64,000 nucleotides of DNA from Beijerinckiaceae bacterium (GTDB taxonomy: Bacteria > Pseudomonadota > Alphaproteobacteria > Rhizobiales > Beijerinckiaceae), in assembly GCA_004564215.1 (NCBI GenBank), contig CP024846.1, forward strand, positions 2,927,501 through 2,991,500. Direction: 5' to 3'. This document shows, one piece after another, positions 9,121 through 15,154 of the stretch (positions are counted from its first letter, which is position 1; every line of letters begins with the position of its first letter). The notes under the pieces were generated by a model. It was given only the letters and a program-made list of their open reading frames with translations, did no database searches and was not told the DNA's origin. The position numbers were made by a program, and so were the translations under genes.

Positions 9121-12100
9121 CTATTGAAAGTTGCGGCCTTTCGGCAGGGCGTGCTGGATCCCCGCAGCGGGGGAGGGGTCCCGGGTTAGCATCTGCGGTT
9201 CGCCAAAAAGGCTCGCTTGGGATTTTTCGCTCTTGTCACCGGGAGGATTTGGCCGCTTTACGGCACGGGCAAGGCCAGGGAGGCTTCCCTGAGCGTTGAG
9301 GTCGGAAAGGAGAAACGTCAAATCCTTGGCGCGCTCCATGACGACATGGATCACGCCCGCCTCGTTTTGCAGGCGTCCTGTCACCGCGATGAAACGCGCA
9401 CCGATGACCGCGGGGCGGTAAATCTCTAAAATCTTCGGCCAGACAATGACATTGGCAATTCCGGTTTCGTCTTCCAATGTGAGAAAGATAATGCCTTTGG
9501 CCGAACCTGGGCGCTGGCGCACGAGAACGAGGCCGGCGACGCTGACCCGGCCGCCGGGGGGAAGGATGGCGAGCTCCTCGGCGCGGCAAATTTTATTTTG
9601 TGTTAGAGCGGGATGAGGAAAAGTGGAAACCGGTTTTCCGCCCGCATCCCGCTCTAAATTTTTGGAATCGATCACGTTCATGATTTTGGATTGAGTTAAT
9701 CCAAAATCATCATGATCTAGCCTCTCGCGCACGAAGGCAACAGGATGTCCTTTCAAGGAAAGCGACAAATGGCGGTAATCCTCGATCACTTGTTCGCCGG
9801 GCGGCATGGGCGGGAGCATGGCGTCAGCTTCGAGCGGGCACCAGCTCAGAGCTTGCAATAAAGGCAGATCATCCTTGTCGCCGGCACGGTTTAATCCGCG
9901 CACGGCCCAAAGCGCCTCGCGCCGGTCGAGACCGAGCGAGCCGAACACGTCGGCTTGCGCCAGAATTTCGAGAATGCCGGGAGAAAGCCCGGTGCGCAGC
10001 CAAAGATCGCGGATCGAATCATAACCATTCTTGCGCAAGGCCACGAGCTTCTGCATGTCGGCTTCGCAAAGTCCTTTGATCTGGCGGAAACCGAGCCGGA
10101 GCCGATGCGTCGAGAGGATCTCGCTTTGCATGGAGGCATGGCGGGGATGCAATTGCCTTGCTGTTGAATCAGGCTGGCTTGTATAGGGATCGAGTGTTGC
10201 GTCCCAATCGGAGAAATTGACATCCACCTCCTCGACGGAAATGCCATGCTCGCGGGCATCGCGCACGATTTGTGCCGGAGCATAGAACCCCATCGGTTGG
10301 GCATTGAGAAGAGCGCAGGCAAAGGCATCCGGGTAGCGGCATTTCATCCAGGCCGAGGCATAGACGAGGAGAGCGAAGGAGGCCGCGTGGCTTTCCGGAA
10401 AGCCATAAGTGCCGAAGCCCTCGATCTGCTTGAAGCAGCGCAGCGCGAAATCGCGTGGATAATTGCGCGCGGCCATACCTTCCACCATCTTGTCCTGGAA
10501 GGTACTGATCGTGCCGACATGTTTGAACGTCGCCATGGAGCGGCGCAGCCGGTCGGCCTCGGCCGGGGTAAAGCCGGCGGCGACGATGGCGATCTTCATC
10601 GCTTGTTCCTGGAACAAGGGGACGCCCAGCGTCTTGCAGAGCACAGCTTCGAGTTCCTTGGAAGGATAGGAGACAGGCTCCAAACCTTGCCGGCGGCGCA
10701 GATAGGGATGCACCATGTCGCCCTGGATCGGCCCTGGCCGCACGATCGCGACTTCGATGACGAGATCGTAGAACGTGCTTGGTTTGAGGCGCGGCAGCAT
10801 CGACATTTGCGCTCGGCTCTCGATCTGGAACACGCCGATCGTATCGGCGCGCGAGATCATGGCATAGACGGCGCGCTCCTCGGCGGGCAGGCGCGCCAAT
10901 GTCATGTCCCTGTCGTAATATTTTTTGATGAGGTCGAAGCCCTTGCGCAGGCAGCTCAGCATGCCGAGTGCCAGCACGTCGATCTTCAAAATGCCAAGGG
11001 CGTCGAGATCGTCCTTGTCCCATTCGATGGTGGTACGGTCTTCCATCGCCGCATTGGCGATGGGCACGGTTTCATCGAGGCGCGAGCGGGTAATGACGAA
11101 GCCGCCCGTATGTTGCGAAAGATGGCGCGGAAAGCCCATGAGTTCGCTGGCGAGTTCGATTGCTTTCGCGAGCCTGGCTTCGGTCGGATCCAGACCTGCC
11201 TTGCGTGTTTCTTGTGCGTCGAGTGTCGACGAATGGCCGAAGACCGTGTTGGATAAAGCTGAAACCGCATCTTCCGAGAAACCGAACGCCTTGCCGGTTT
11301 CACGAATGGCCGAACGCATGCGGTAGGTGATGACGCTCGCCGTCAGGCCGGCCCTGGCGCGGCCGTAATGCTCATAAATATATTGCATGACTTCTTCGCG
11401 CCGTTCATGCTCGAAATCGACATCGATATCGGGAGGCTCGTTGCGCTCGGTAGAAATAAAGCGTTCAAAAAGAAGATCATGAATGGCCGGATCGACCTCG
11501 GTGATGCCGAGACAAAAGCAGAGCGTCGAATTGGCTGCCGAGCCACGGCCTTGGCATAAAATGCCGCGCGAACGGGCAAAGCGCATGATGTCGTGGACAG
11601 TCAGAAAATAGGGCGCGTAATCGAGCTCCGCGACAAGCTTCAATTCATGCGCGATCGCTTGCCGCACATGTGGCGGAACGCCGTTTGGATAGCGCTGCCT
11701 TGCCCCCTCATGGGTGAAAGCCTCCAAAGCTTCCTGCGGTGTTGCAAAGCCCTCCCGCAATTCCTCGGGATAATCGCCGCGAAGCTCATCGAGGCTGAAG
11801 TTGATGCCTTCCAGAAAATATAAGGTCTCTGCGATCGCCTCGGGGGCCTCGGCAAAGAGACGCGCCATCTCGGTCGCGTCTTTGAGATGGCGCTCGGCAT
11901 TGGCCTCGAGCCGATAGCCTGCTGCGTCCAGAGTCACGCCTTCACGGATAGAGGTGAGCACATCCTGCAAGGCGCGCCGCTGCGGCGCATGCATGAGAAC
12001 ATCGTTGGTGGCGAGAAGCGGAAGGCCGGTCCTGCGTGCAAGAGCGCGGCGGTTCATAAGATCGCGCCGCATGTGCCGGCCATAAGTCATCGACGCCGCA

Positions 12101-12702
12101 AGCCAGACGTTATTTTGCGTGGCGGCACGCAGCGAGTCCAGCAACGCAAAATGTGTGTAAGACGGCTCTTTGCCTTCGGTCACGGTTTTGGGGGCATCGG
12201 TTAAATCGGAATGGATTTTTGCCGCCTGCCTGCGCGTATCCTTGGCCTCCCAGCTGCTCTTTGGCATGACGATGAGTTGCATACCTTGCGCATGCTCGAT
12301 GAGGTCGCTTTGCGTGAGCAGGCACGTCCCTTTTTGCGCGCGGGCGTTGCCGCGCGTGAGGAGCCGCGTCAGGCGGGCATAGGCGGCGCGGTCCTTCGGA
12401 AAGCTCAAAATGTCGGGTGTATGATCGCAAAAGACGAGCCGGGCGCCGCTTACCACGCGAAGGCCTTTCGCGGCAGCCTTATGCTCGCGGGCGAAAACAT
12501 GGGCGCGCGCAATACCGGCGAGCGAATTGCGATCGGCGATCCCGATCCCGGCAAGGCCCAGATCCAGGGCTTGGGCGACAAGCTCTTGCGGATGCGAAGC
12601 GCCGCGTAAAAACGAAAAATTCGTCGTGACGGCGAGTTCGGCATAGCGCGGGGAATCCCTTTCCGTGCCAGGCTCTCTTGTCATGTCAGCATCTCTTGTC
12701 AT
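9121..12702 (-). CDS. dnaE2: Error-prone DNA polymerase III alpha subunit DnaE2
   Basis: A 1193-residue C-family polymerase. The order is an N-terminal PHP domain (AELAVTTNFSFLRGAS), the catalytic core (NEPPDIDVDFEHERREE, then GFVITRSR), and a C-terminal OB fold (SVAGLVLVRQRPGSAKG). DnaE2 performs SOS translesion synthesis with ImuA and ImuB. The ATG at 12702 overlaps the imuB stop as ATGA, so translation is coupled; a second ATG at 12684 is possible. The protein is longer than the usual 1050-1090 residues, partly because a palindromic element adds about 40 residues near 995-1036. Confidence 0.95.
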   Translation of the reverse strand: MTRDADMTREPGTERDSPRYAELAVTTNFSFLRGASHPQELVAQALDLGLAGIGIADRNSLAGIARAHVFAREHKAAAKGLRVVSGARLVFCDHTPDILSFPKDRAAYARLTRLLTRGNARAQKGTCLLTQSDLIEHAQGMQLIVMPKSSWEAKDTRRQAAKIHSDLTDAPKTVTEGKEPSYTHFALLDSLRAATQNNVWLAASMTYGRHMRRDLMNRRALARRTGLPLLATNDVLMHAPQRRALQDVLTSIREGVTLDAAGYRLEANAERHLKDATEMARLFAEAPEAIAETLYFLEGINFSLDELRGDYPEELREGFATPQEALEAFTHEGARQRYPNGVPPHVRQAIAHELKLVAELDYAPYFLTVHDIMRFARSRGILCQGRGSAANSTLCFCLGITEVDPAIHDLLFERFISTERNEPPDIDVDFEHERREEVMQYIYEHYGRARAGLTASVITYRMRSAIRETGKAFGFSEDAVSALSNTVFGHSSTLDAQETRKAGLDPTEARLAKAIELASELMGFPRHLSQHTGGFVITRSRLDETVPIANAAMEDRTTIEWDKDDLDALGILKIDVLALGMLSCLRKGFDLIKKYYDRDMTLARLPAEERAVYAMISRADTIGVFQIESRAQMSMLPRLKPSTFYDLVIEVAIVRPGPIQGDMVHPYLRRRQGLEPVSYPSKELEAVLCKTLGVPLFQEQAMKIAIVAAGFTPAEADRLRRSMATFKHVGTISTFQDKMVEGMAARNYPRDFALRCFKQIEGFGTYGFPESHAASFALLVYASAWMKCRYPDAFACALLNAQPMGFYAPAQIVRDAREHGISVEEVDVNFSDWDATLDPYTSQPDSTARQLHPRHASMQSEILSTHRLRLGFRQIKGLCEADMQKLVALRKNGYDSIRDLWLRTGLSPGILEILAQADVFGSLGLDRREALWAVRGLNRAGDKDDLPLLQALSWCPLEADAMLPPMPPGEQVIEDYRHLSLSLKGHPVAFVRERLDHDDFGLTQSKIMNVIDSKNLERDAGGKPVSTFPHPALTQNKICRAEELAILPPGGRVSVAGLVLVRQRPGSAKGIIFLTLEDETGIANVIVWPKILEIYRPAVIGARFIAVTGRLQNEAGVIHVVMERAKDLTFLLSDLNAQGSLPGLARAVKRPNPPGDKSEKSQASLFGEPQMLTRDPSPAAGIQHALPKGRNFQ
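9596..9720. repeat. Two-hairpin palindromic element inserted in dnaE2
   Basis: One arm pair is TTAGAGCGGGATG at 9603-9615 facing CATCCCGCTCTAA at 9645-9657. The second is a perfect 13-bp inverted repeat, ATGATTTTGGATT (9680-9692) and AATCCAAAATCAT (9698-9710), with a 5-base loop. The stretch is translated without a stop as part of DnaE2. It separates residues that are normally adjacent: RERL on one side and CRAEELAILPPGG on the other. It resembles dispersed intergenic palindromes of Hyphomicrobiales, here placed inside a gene. No second copy was noticed in the window. Confidence 0.8.
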
Positions 12703-14315
12703 GCAAAGAGACCGTGCATGAACCAGCGCGGCCGCGCCGTTTCGCCGTTGAAAAGACCTTCGCGAAAGAGCCAGAACCTGTGGCCCTCGCTGTCTTCGGC
12801 GCGGAAATAATCGCGGGTCAAGGCCGTCTCGTCGTTCCACCATTCAGGTGCGATGCGCTCCGGGCCTTCGATGGCCGCGACCTCGTGCATGACGCGGCGC
12901 CAACGAAATCGCAGAGGCGGCCCGTCGGGCACGCCAGCGATGGTTTCGATCGGCTCCGGCCGCTGCAAAAGCCGGATCGGACGAGAAGGGAGCGTGCTTG
13001 CAGGTTCGGCCCCCTCCCGCGCCTCGTCCTTGGCATGCACCTTGGCGGATGGGCGGGAGATCGAGGCGGAGCTGCGCGCCGCCGCGGCGGGAACCGCGAC
13101 GACCGCGAATTCCGGCACATGCGTGGCGTTGAAAGCGAGCCGGGTGACCCGCCGCAATCCCAATCTCGCGCCGAGCCGGTCGATGAGATGGACGAGATCG
13201 GCGGTATCGGCGGCATCGCTTTGGCCAATGTCGAAATTCGTTTGCTCGGGATTCTGGCGCTCGACCACAAGGGCCGCGAGGCGAATGACATCGAAGCCAC
13301 AGCCGGCGTCGAAAGCATCGCCGCCGGTCTCCACATTGGCTCTTTCGATGCGTTCGTGGAACAGTCTTGCGATGGCCTTGGGTTCGCGTAACGGCCGGCT
13401 CGTGCCCACCTCAAAATGTTTCACCATGCCATCGACACGAAACAAGCTTGCCTCAAGGCGCCGCGCGCCTTCGTCATGGAGGAAGAGAAGGCTTGAGAGA
13501 TCCTGTGCGAGCGACAAGAACGTAGCTTCGATGTCCTCACGTTGCGTAATGCCTTCCAGAAAGCGCCGCTCCGCCAGATAGGCCGGCGCCTCGAAACGCG
13601 GCGATATCGCGGTTTTGGAAACCCCCAAAAGCGCATCGAGCCGGGCATGCAGAAAAGGACCAAATCTTGCGGTGATCGGCGCGCGCGGCCGCAGGATGAT
13701 GTCGGAGATGCGGCGCAATCCCGCCTGCGCGAGATCGGCAAGAGTTGCCGCATCGACACACAAGGCTGCGAGCGGCAGATCGCCGAGACGGCGAGCGAGT
13801 TCTTTTTGGTCAAGATTTGGCGGCAGGATTTGCAGGGCGCCATAACGTGCCAAAGCCCAGGCCGCTTCCGGCGTCGATGCAAGGCCAGCGCGGGCGCCAA
13901 AGCCCTGGTCTTTGAGCCGGTCCTCGACTTCAGCGATAAGTTTTTCTTCGCCCCCAAAAAGATGCGTTGCGCCGCTCACATCGAGCATTACGCCATCGGG
14001 CGGATCGAGCGCCACAAGGGGCGTGAAACGACGGCACCAGTCGGTCAGATTTTCGAGTGTCTGCGCTTCGGCTCTCGCATCCGCATCGATACAGACGAGG
14101 GAAGGATGCATGGCACGGGCGTCGGTGAGCGTCATGCCAGGCTTAAGACCCAAGGCCATGGCCCGCGGGTCGACGGCGGCGAGTCTTTGCGCGCTCTTGA
14201 TTTTGATGACCGTCGCGAGCAGAGCATCAGGCGGTTTTCGCAAGCCTTGCGCGCGCCTCAGCCGATTGATCCGGTCGATGGCGAGAAAAGGCAGCGAGAG
14301 GGAGAGGAAACGCAT
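12699..14315 (-). CDS. imuB: ImuB, Y-family polymerase-like mutasome subunit
   Basis: This 538-residue protein begins MRFLSLSLPFLAIDR. It has the Y-family fold but not the usual catalytic acidic pair, as expected for ImuB, which acts as a beta-clamp-bound adaptor rather than a polymerase. The frame is open to 14540, but the family N-terminus fixes the start at 14315. The start lies inside imuA with an 89-bp overlap, and the end overlaps dnaE2 by 4 bp. It is part of the LexA-controlled imuA-imuB-dnaE2 operon. Confidence 0.93.
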   Translation of the reverse strand: MRFLSLSLPFLAIDRINRLRRAQGLRKPPDALLATVIKIKSAQRLAAVDPRAMALGLKPGMTLTDARAMHPSLVCIDADARAEAQTLENLTDWCRRFTPLVALDPPDGVMLDVSGATHLFGGEEKLIAEVEDRLKDQGFGARAGLASTPEAAWALARYGALQILPPNLDQKELARRLGDLPLAALCVDAATLADLAQAGLRRISDIILRPRAPITARFGPFLHARLDALLGVSKTAISPRFEAPAYLAERRFLEGITQREDIEATFLSLAQDLSSLLFLHDEGARRLEASLFRVDGMVKHFEVGTSRPLREPKAIARLFHERIERANVETGGDAFDAGCGFDVIRLAALVVERQNPEQTNFDIGQSDAADTADLVHLIDRLGARLGLRRVTRLAFNATHVPEFAVVAVPAAAARSSASISRPSAKVHAKDEAREGAEPASTLPSRPIRLLQRPEPIETIAGVPDGPPLRFRWRRVMHEVAAIEGPERIAPEWWNDETALTRDYFRAEDSEGHRFWLFREGLFNGETARPRWFMHGLFA

Positions 14316-15129
14316 CGCGGAAACATGCCTCTTCGTGATCCCAGAGAACGGCAAAAAACCTATCCCGGTCGAAGCCGACGCCGGAGGGACCGGCGCGGGC
14401 CTTGAGGATGCGGACGGACCAGGAAGCAAGGCCCGGCGGCGGCAAGCCTGGAACAGGTCCCAGGCTTGCCAGGTCCTCCTTCCGAGATCCGGGTCGTGAA
14501 AGAATCTCGAAACGGGTTTTCGCGCTGCTCGAAAACCCACGCGCGCCGGGCGCGGCCATGAGCATCAGGCCTGGCGTTCCGCTTTTTTGCGCCCCGAGAA
14601 CAAGGCGGCGGGACGCAACGAGGTCATAGGCCTTTTGCGGGTTTCCGATTTCGGCGATCACGGCGGCCGCGCGGCATTTCAAGGCCTCTTCCATGGTCCA
14701 GAGGCTTTCCTTTACATGCGGCGTATGGATCAGGAGGAGGCGAGCGGGATCGATGCCATGAAGCGCGAGCCCGGGCCCATAAGGCCTGCCATTCTCCAGT
14801 CCGGCGTAATCCTCGACGATCCAAATAATGGTCGATTGGGTTTGGTCGACTTTTGCGGCAAACCGGGCAGCCAAGGCCAGGGCGAAACCACATGCCGCCG
14901 CCGCATCATTGGCACCGGCCGGCACGATCTCATGCAAGGCGCTGCGGCAAAGGCCACCCTGCAACACCCTATCGAGGCTGCAATTCTCGCCTAGAGTTAC
15001 TCCTGCGGGCTCGGGAGCCCGGCGTTGAAGGAAACCGTTTCTGGAGGGGCTCAGACCACAGCCGGCTTCGATCCAGGCGATTTTCTGGCGCAAAAAATCC
15101 ACTCGTTCCGAACTGCCGCTATGCGACAT
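14227..15129 (-). CDS. imuA: ImuA, SOS mutasome RecA-like accessory protein
   Basis: A 300-residue RecA/SulA-like protein that heads the mutasome operon. Family blocks include LHEIVPAGANDAAAACGFAL near residue 65 and TIIWIVEDYAGLENGRPYG near 100. The ATG at 15129 has GGGAG nine bases upstream; an in-frame GTG at 15138 is the alternative. ImuA works with ImuB and DnaE2 in damage-induced mutagenesis. A LexA box lies 25 bp upstream. Confidence 0.92.
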   Translation of the reverse strand: MSHSGSSERVDFLRQKIAWIEAGCGLSPSRNGFLQRRAPEPAGVTLGENCSLDRVLQGGLCRSALHEIVPAGANDAAAACGFALALAARFAAKVDQTQSTIIWIVEDYAGLENGRPYGPGLALHGIDPARLLLIHTPHVKESLWTMEEALKCRAAAVIAEIGNPQKAYDLVASRRLVLGAQKSGTPGLMLMAAPGARGFSSSAKTRFEILSRPGSRKEDLASLGPVPGLPPPGLASWSVRILKARAGPSGVGFDRDRFFAVLWDHEEACFRDAFPLPLAAFSRHRPDQSAEARARLAKTA

Positions 15130-15154
15130 CGGCCGCACTCCCGGCTCGCCATAA

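Follow-up and report, generated by a model that had tools for sequence, protein, structure and literature searches.

A dispersed palindromic element with IS630-like ends, lying in frame within dnaE2 of a Beijerinckiaceae bacterium

The dnaE2 locus and its insert

The locus lies in a 64,000-nucleotide stretch of DNA (hereafter "the window") from a Beijerinckiaceae genome that consists of a single contig of 3,326,434 bp. An open reading frame (ORF) of 1240 aa, which reaches 1364 bits against the NCBIfam model PRK05672 (cut-off 939), encodes the error-prone DNA polymerase DnaE2, the only one among the 45 scored of 65 genome candidates and accompanied by a DnaE of 32% identity. Its true start is probably a later ATG than the start of the ORF. 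The gene adjoins imuB-like and imuA-like genes, whose names are drawn partly from resemblance and position, since the corresponding models match below their cut-offs. The features of the locus are as follows:

9121..12843, minus strand: dnaE2, error-prone DNA polymerase, 1240-aa ORF (NCBIfam PRK05672)
12699..14540, minus strand: imuB-like Y-family polymerase gene, by resemblance (NCBIfam polymerase IV models below cut-offs)
14227..15138, minus strand: imuA-like gene (ImuA model match below its cut-off)
9604..9719, no strand: complete element from TA to TA, 116 bp, net insertion 114 bp, delimited by genome copies and insert-free DnaE2 homologues
9604..9605, no strand: TA opening the element on the left (target site duplication), with T (Y) before it
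9718..9719, no strand: TA closing the element on the right (target site duplication), with G (R) after it
9606..9617, plus strand: left terminal repeat GAGCGGGATGAG, equal to one end of the IS630-family element L200 (TA included)
9604..9657, no strand: hairpin 1, from arm search and folding
9670..9717, no strand: hairpin 2, whose outer end GATCATGATGATTTT is partly like the other IS630 end GAGCGGGATGATTTT
9604..9717, minus strand: translated insert, 38 codons, residues 1043-1080, DHDDFGLTQSKIMNVIDSKNLERDAGGKPVSTFPHPAL

The initial annotation had described a palindrome of two hairpins inside the dnaE2 frame, and both hairpins are indeed present and fold far better than shuffled sequences. Specifically, the arms of hairpin 1 (9603-9618 and 9642-9657) are 16 nt long and 94% complementary, and those of hairpin 2 (9680-9692 and 9698-9710) are 13 nt long and 100% complementary. 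As RNA, the element folds with -50.1 kcal/mol (z -8.0), which none of 200 shuffles equalled, and folding as DNA yields a z of -7.8. The palindrome lies inside the frame as described, but its bounds, given as 9596..9720, had to be moved to 9604-9719 with a net insert of 114 bp. Likewise, the estimate of about 40 added residues holds (38), but their position, given as 995-1036, becomes 1043-1080; the older numbering fits a count from the later start codon.

The size of the insert can be read from the spacing between two invariant sites that served as anchors in an alignment of 40 DnaE2 homologues (two more of the 42 loci were left out). This spacing amounts to 28-44 residues in the homologues, mostly 31, and to 69 here, that is, 31 plus 38. 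The insert-free homologues therefore imply a net gain of 38 codons (116 minus 2 bp). Conservation of the inserted residues in most DnaE2 proteins, which had been named as a finding that would speak against the palindrome reading, was not observed, as the 40 homologues have the shorter loop. The element is absent from all 44 DnaE2-type loci spanning the insertion site. The exact empty site was not found among the DnaE2 homologues, six relatives having CTC or CTG in place of the CTA of this gene. Separately, the dnaE2 of Bauldia litoralis (L067) carries, in the same loop, an unrelated, repetitive and charged insertion at least about 38 residues long, from which we conclude that the loop tolerates changes in length.

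The insert was thought to be unique to this copy of DnaE2, which proved incorrect: a database protein (P0001) is a DnaE2 that is identical at 1139 of 1186 residues and carries the insert at the identical position. On the sequence evidence, the insertion appears to predate the divergence of this lineage from that of P0001. Residue differences between the two proteins amount to 2/39 within the insert, 34/981 before it and 5/160 after it; in the polymerase core, 6 of 422 residues differ, and the frame of P0001 is intact. These comparisons also bear on whether DnaE2 has lost some or all of its function through the insertion, with the gene on a course of decay, as the size of the insert and its location near the OB domain might suggest. 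We judge this unlikely, given that the frame is intact here too, that the model score exceeds its cut-off by a wide margin (1364 bits vs 939) and that P0001 combines the same insert and an intact frame with so few core differences; the polymerase presumably still works.

An AlphaFold2 model of DnaE2 residues 830-1240, built from 41 sequences, has a mean pLDDT of 71.8 and a pTM of 0.46. In this model the insert (model residues 214-251) is predicted as coil, with pLDDT mostly below 50, and is flanked by a helix (205-215) and by the strands of the OB domain (270-345, mostly near 90). Since the insert occurs in no other row of the alignment, its low pLDDT would be expected on that ground too, and the result fits a disordered loop without proving one. 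Taken together, the insert probably forms a disordered loop where the helix-hairpin-helix region passes into the OB domain; the external loop proposed in the initial annotation is compatible with this low-confidence coil prediction.

A dispersed family with IS630-like ends

The host genome contains at least 53 copies of the element, a count to which a first screen with 40 of its 65 candidates scored contributed. This agrees with the proposal of a dispersed Hyphomicrobiales palindrome and is at odds with the second finding that had been named as speaking against it, namely a lack of other genomic copies. The 55 BLAST rows correspond to 53 copies, with two rows each for L170 and L174, and to 51 independent copies once the segmentally duplicated L161, L163 and L172 are counted as one. 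The latter have identical flanks behind a gene of 445 aa and represent a segmental duplication found three times in the genome. We considered as complete the 47 copies with a recognisable right end, leaving out six and keeping duplicates. TA is found at both edges in 37 of these 47, and in 36 of the 37 it is preceded by Y and followed by R. A 4-bp duplication of YTAR was considered as well and rejected, since only TA occurs in duplicate and the bases outside it (Y on one side, R on the other) do not repeat one another. The commonest length is 116 bp (23/47 complete copies), with a net length of 114 bp, a multiple of three. Matches to the element occur in 17 of 40 genomes, the host genome included.

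Two side observations concern the architecture of the copies. Hairpin 2 occurs in three length forms, the common one of 116 bp and others of 113 bp (6 copies) and 119 bp (3 copies); its arms match in the 113- and 119-bp forms where inspected (e.g., L142 and L152) and are unequal in the 116-bp form, a pattern that would fit templating of one arm by the other. At L141 (genome positions 155365-155593), two elements lie head to tail, with one end lost at the junction.

We then turn to the enzyme that might move such a palindrome. Matches to the IS630-type transposase domain PF13358 are confined to one locus of the host genome, where an IS630-family element of 1050 bp (L200:1381-2430; ends TAGAGCGGGATGA) sits in CCCCC-TA-GGGGG. 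Its transposase is encoded in two different frames, with a run of eight A at the transition, which suggests programmed frameshifting, as far as sequence can tell. The two ends of this element read TAGAGCGGGATGAGATTTGGCGGAA and TAGAGCGGGATGATTTTAGACGGAA. The palindrome starts with TAGAGCGGGATGAGG, of which 14 nt including the TA are identical to one of these ends, and its right end (consensus TAGATCACGATGATTTT) has a partial likeness to the second; in the direct comparison, consensus GATCACGATGATTTT matches GAGCGGGATGATTTT in part. Similar ends are found on IS630 elements of relatives where visible (L202-L205, L208, L209 and L212). On pSymB of Sinorhizobium meliloti, which has three PF13358 loci, such ends lie on both sides of one (L285), on one side of another (L287) and not at the third (L286).

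The properties by which miniature inverted-repeat transposable elements (MITEs) are recognised are thus found together: no transposase of its own and many copies per autonomous element (116 bp, at least 53 copies, one PF13358 locus), terminal repeats in common with an IS630 element of the same genome (14 nt identical on the left, partial on the right) and TA at both edges (37/47 complete copies). The initial annotation had not mentioned this likeness to an IS630-type MITE. A palindrome of the REP/BIME type, moved by a RAYT tyrosine transposase, would likewise be palindromic, dispersed and mostly intergenic; however, the host genome has no match to Y1_Tnp (PF01797), the RAYT domain searched for, and the TA edges and IS630-like ends point elsewhere, leaving this origin exceedingly improbable. 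Given the IS630-like ends, the TA sites and the absence of RAYT, the element has the appearance of a MITE belonging to this IS630 group.

Reading frame, insertion sites and host proteins

Only one of the six frames of the dnaE2 copy is open, on the minus strand and entered at a codon YTA. In this frame, 35 of the 47 complete copies are open and a multiple of three in length; the other 12 fail by length, and none by substitution to a stop codon. We examined the classes of substitutions in all six frames on 45 of the 47 complete copies. No stop codon was found among 89 distinct substitutions, against 1.99 expected, which is not significant (P 0.115), and for selection on the peptide the synonymous and nonsynonymous counts of the genome copies fit the null. 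Since the substitutions show no codon-level selection, a tolerated, near-neutral insertion fits best, and the insert in dnaE2 is, on this evidence, probably neutral or nearly so.

The 51 independent copies fall into three classes: three lie inside called genes, 20 abut a stop codon formed by the element edge and 28 lie elsewhere. Genes were called by codon usage trained on the window, a simple method that could miss genes broken by insertions. The three genic hosts are dnaE2, acetate kinase (L150) and an ACR3 arsenite transporter (L155), all with the element in its open frame. The acetate kinase scores above the TIGR00016 cut-off and the ACR3 protein above its NCBIfam cut-off, the ACR3 model being split in two stretches; comparison of the ACR3 host with solved structures gave nothing meaningful. 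By comparison, the 204 YTAR sites of the window comprise 100 in called genes, 17 at stop codons and 87 in intergenic DNA. Copies in genes (3/51) are therefore in short supply relative to YTAR sites in genes (100/204 in the window; P 2e-11), and edge-formed stops are in excess among non-genic copies (20/48, against 17/104 of the non-genic YTAR sites; P 3e-5). Counting duplicates, the edge-formed stops number 22 instead of 20; among the 20 independent ones the codon is TAG in 17 and TAA in three variant copies. The stop can be re-formed at the edge because a YTAR site, when read as TAR, is itself a stop codon (TAA or TAG), and each edge of the element reads TAG. The genic shortage and the stop-codon excess fit a loss of disruptive insertions, and a target preference may add to the latter. 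At L153 and L160, the called gene is terminated by a TGA within the element, which may thus have altered the gene tails or supplied a new C-terminal tail. The annotated slipin gene at L247 in Sinorhizobium also ends at the element edge.

These observations can be arranged into a mechanism. The IS630-family transposase would act in trans on the palindrome and insert it at Y-TA-R sites, leaving TA at both edges. Where orientation and phase are right (codon YTA at the edge), the gene would be read through for 38 residues without a stop; where the TA falls within a stop codon, the element edge would re-form TAG (TAA in variant copies) and the gene would still end there. Insertions in other phases would break genes and mostly be lost by selection, so that the survivors would be those in intergenic DNA, those at stop codons and those that are in frame where the site tolerates them. 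We consider it very probable that the dnaE2 insert is a copy of such a non-autonomous, IS630-mobilised MITE, tolerated as a near-neutral insertion.

Searching protein databases with the peptide as a region of the DnaE2, ACR3 and ImuB hosts revealed 51 proteins that carry it (6, 42 and 3 new in successive searches), among them the acetate kinase of the host genome (P0012) and the related DnaE2 (P0001). Together with the two further in-frame genes of this genome, they bear out the suggestion of a Rickettsia-style, in-frame entry into coding genes. As the open frame alone was searched, the census is mute on the absence of other frames. Homology outside the peptide was limited to two pairs among the 51, a PBP1C pair and P0007/P0008 (78 aa); the latter match is probably a second, unmasked copy, since both proteins carry two. 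A few of the other hosts have a Pfam superfamily in common (e.g., CHAD, nitroreductase and methyltransferase). The hosts include KdpC, MoeA, MutL (between its domains), RibD, ImuB, TrmB, a P-type ATPase, NicO of Methyloferula stellata and a sulfite-reductase-like flavoprotein.

Precomputed Pfam domains are available for 44 of the 51 proteins, and a domain scan covered 32 (31 of these 44, plus P0051), of which 31 pass the Pfam cut-off and P0051 does not. In nine of the 32 (P0019, P0020, P0022, P0028, P0030, P0036, P0038, P0040 and P0046), the peptide is covered in full by a single Pfam stretch, and in four (P0005, P0006, P0010 and P0027) the domain is split in two stretches. Within the 51, the peptide lies at most 50 residues from the N-terminus in 11, equally close to the C-terminus in seven and internally in 33. 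Where the peptide is N-terminal, translation may actually start downstream of the element, and P0050 begins inside it. A longer subfamily, with about 12-15 extra residues in the peptide and in frame, was noticed in P0042, P0043, P0045, P0048, P0049 and P0050 (for example, ERDAQISLRNPRKLDCAGKP); one of its hosts is an ImuB.

In the DNA of other genomes, copies lie in frame in moeA, a cytochrome chaperone gene, the PBP1C gene, nicO and a methyltransferase gene, and in frame near the N-terminus in a methylmalonyl-CoA mutase gene and glyQ. The host at L234 resembles Hda/DnaA in our own reading, Pfam giving no match. Five of the 15 ORFs across copies (L227, L228, L230, L233 and L235) were not counted, being antisense or spurious by eye; the ORF at L238 has an internal stop, and region L240, which overlaps L227, was left out. 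An annotated pxpB gene in Terrarubrum (L246) was rejected as an in-frame host and left uncounted, since it starts inside the copy.

The breadth of hosts bears on the idea, raised in the initial annotation, that the insert alters polymerase or mutasome contacts, an idea to which our analysis lends no support. Co-option of the insert, changing mutasome contacts or the regulation of the polymerase, might be read from its C-terminal location, its retention in P0001 and the presence of the peptide in the ImuB of another lineage (P0043). However, dozens of other kinds of protein carry the same peptide, the genome copies give no sign of codon-level selection, and the 2/39 differences from P0001 do not set the insert clearly apart from the rest of the protein, which together make such a role quite improbable. 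A broader alternative is that the element itself has been selected for translatability, with a length of a multiple of three, one open frame, a peptide that does no harm and edges that form stop codons, so that harmless copies spread further. The 35 of 47 complete copies that are open and in phase here, set against one of 12 complete pSymB copies with a length divisible by three (Fisher P 4e-5), and the lack of stop codons among the 89 substitutions would argue for it. Yet the synonymous and nonsynonymous counts match the null, the lack of stops is not significant, and a founder effect explains the length in the host genome; moreover, among the matches listed for genome G013, 5/23 are in phase with the query length and 17 are one base longer, so that a frame-neutral length is no rule of the family. 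We hold selection for translatability to be rather unlikely. With similar reserve, one may speculate about a gene-compatible transposon family of free-living bacteria, which docks on stop codons and re-forms them or else reads through as a harmless disordered peptide, uses coding DNA as its habitat and feeds 38-residue loops into dozens of proteins, some of them essential. The preferred reading remains that of a tolerated, near-neutral MITE copy.

Relation to known palindromic elements

Against plasmid records, the 116 bp gave 166 matches, 135 of them over at least 80% of the length, with 146 in Sinorhizobium and 12 in Ensifer. On pSymB of strain 1021 there are 34 matches, 12 of them complete, and 11 of the 12 are not a multiple of three in length; the repeat is not annotated in the pSymB record. 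The Rhizobium-specific intergenic mosaic element RIME1, reportedly described by Osteras et al. in 1995, is said to be roughly 109 bp long with two palindromes. By elimination and from this description, we take the family with the Sinorhizobium plasmid copies to be probably RIME1, a name that serves as a lead. Such a length and two palindromes fit our element, whereas the in-frame genic copies in the host genome and its relatives are unlike what its intergenic name implies. If the link is true, a repeat whose name marks it as intergenic occurs within proteins of a sister lineage.

Other repeats were compared as well. Searched with Rfam, the window gave nothing at the gathering threshold, and one Sinorhizobium copy gave, at E<=1, two matches far below the gathering scores. 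Identity with the Sinorhizobium repeats Sm-4 and Sm-5 was rejected, because their pSymB coordinates as given in Table 1 of PMC2780559 do not overlap with ours; two repeats in that listing are no more than a few hundred bases away from partial element matches. The element as a protein-coding sequence is unreported in the literature titles and abstract openings searched, in which subscription papers are thinly covered.

Among described MITEs, RUP of Streptococcus pneumoniae is, according to the sections of PMC2229807 used here, a 107-bp MITE of IS630-Spn1 with IS630-like terminal repeats and a TA target, which is intergenic and has stop codons in all six frames. Our element resembles RUP in its IS630-like terminal repeats and TA target, but differs in having one open frame and in being found inside proteins. 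ERIC and Correia elements are listed in the same sections as short TA-flanked MITEs, some forms of which have open reading frames (PMC2229807); they have other hosts, and we liken them by description.

The closest parallel in behaviour is offered by the Rickettsia palindromic elements (RPEs), which the consulted portions of two sources describe as palindromes of 105-146 bp, either intergenic or fused in frame into conserved proteins (PMC2229807, PMC10969869). The corresponding part of the latter, a review from 2024, calls this in-frame habit unusually frequent and a similar mechanism in other prokaryotes conceivable (PMC10969869). To judge from a cited title, the palindromic repeats of Wolbachia group with RPEs as the nearest system. 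Like RPEs, the element described here is a palindrome of about 100-150 bp found in frame inside unrelated conserved proteins. Unlike them, its hosts are Hyphomicrobiales, it has an IS630 candidate partner and many of its copies lie at stop codons; RPE hosts are obligate intracellular, and the portions used name no transposase (PMC2229807, PMC10969869). A Rickettsia-like, in-frame invasion of many proteins would thus now extend to soil- and plant-associated Hyphomicrobiales, with a candidate transposase at hand. Cultured relatives and natural lengths that are either frame-neutral or frame-shifting would make the movement of the element, the tolerance of its insertions and its supply of new protein segments accessible to experiment. 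By analogy of behaviour, the element appears to work like an RPE, yet we do not file it as one, since the genome and all named matches belong to Hyphomicrobiales.
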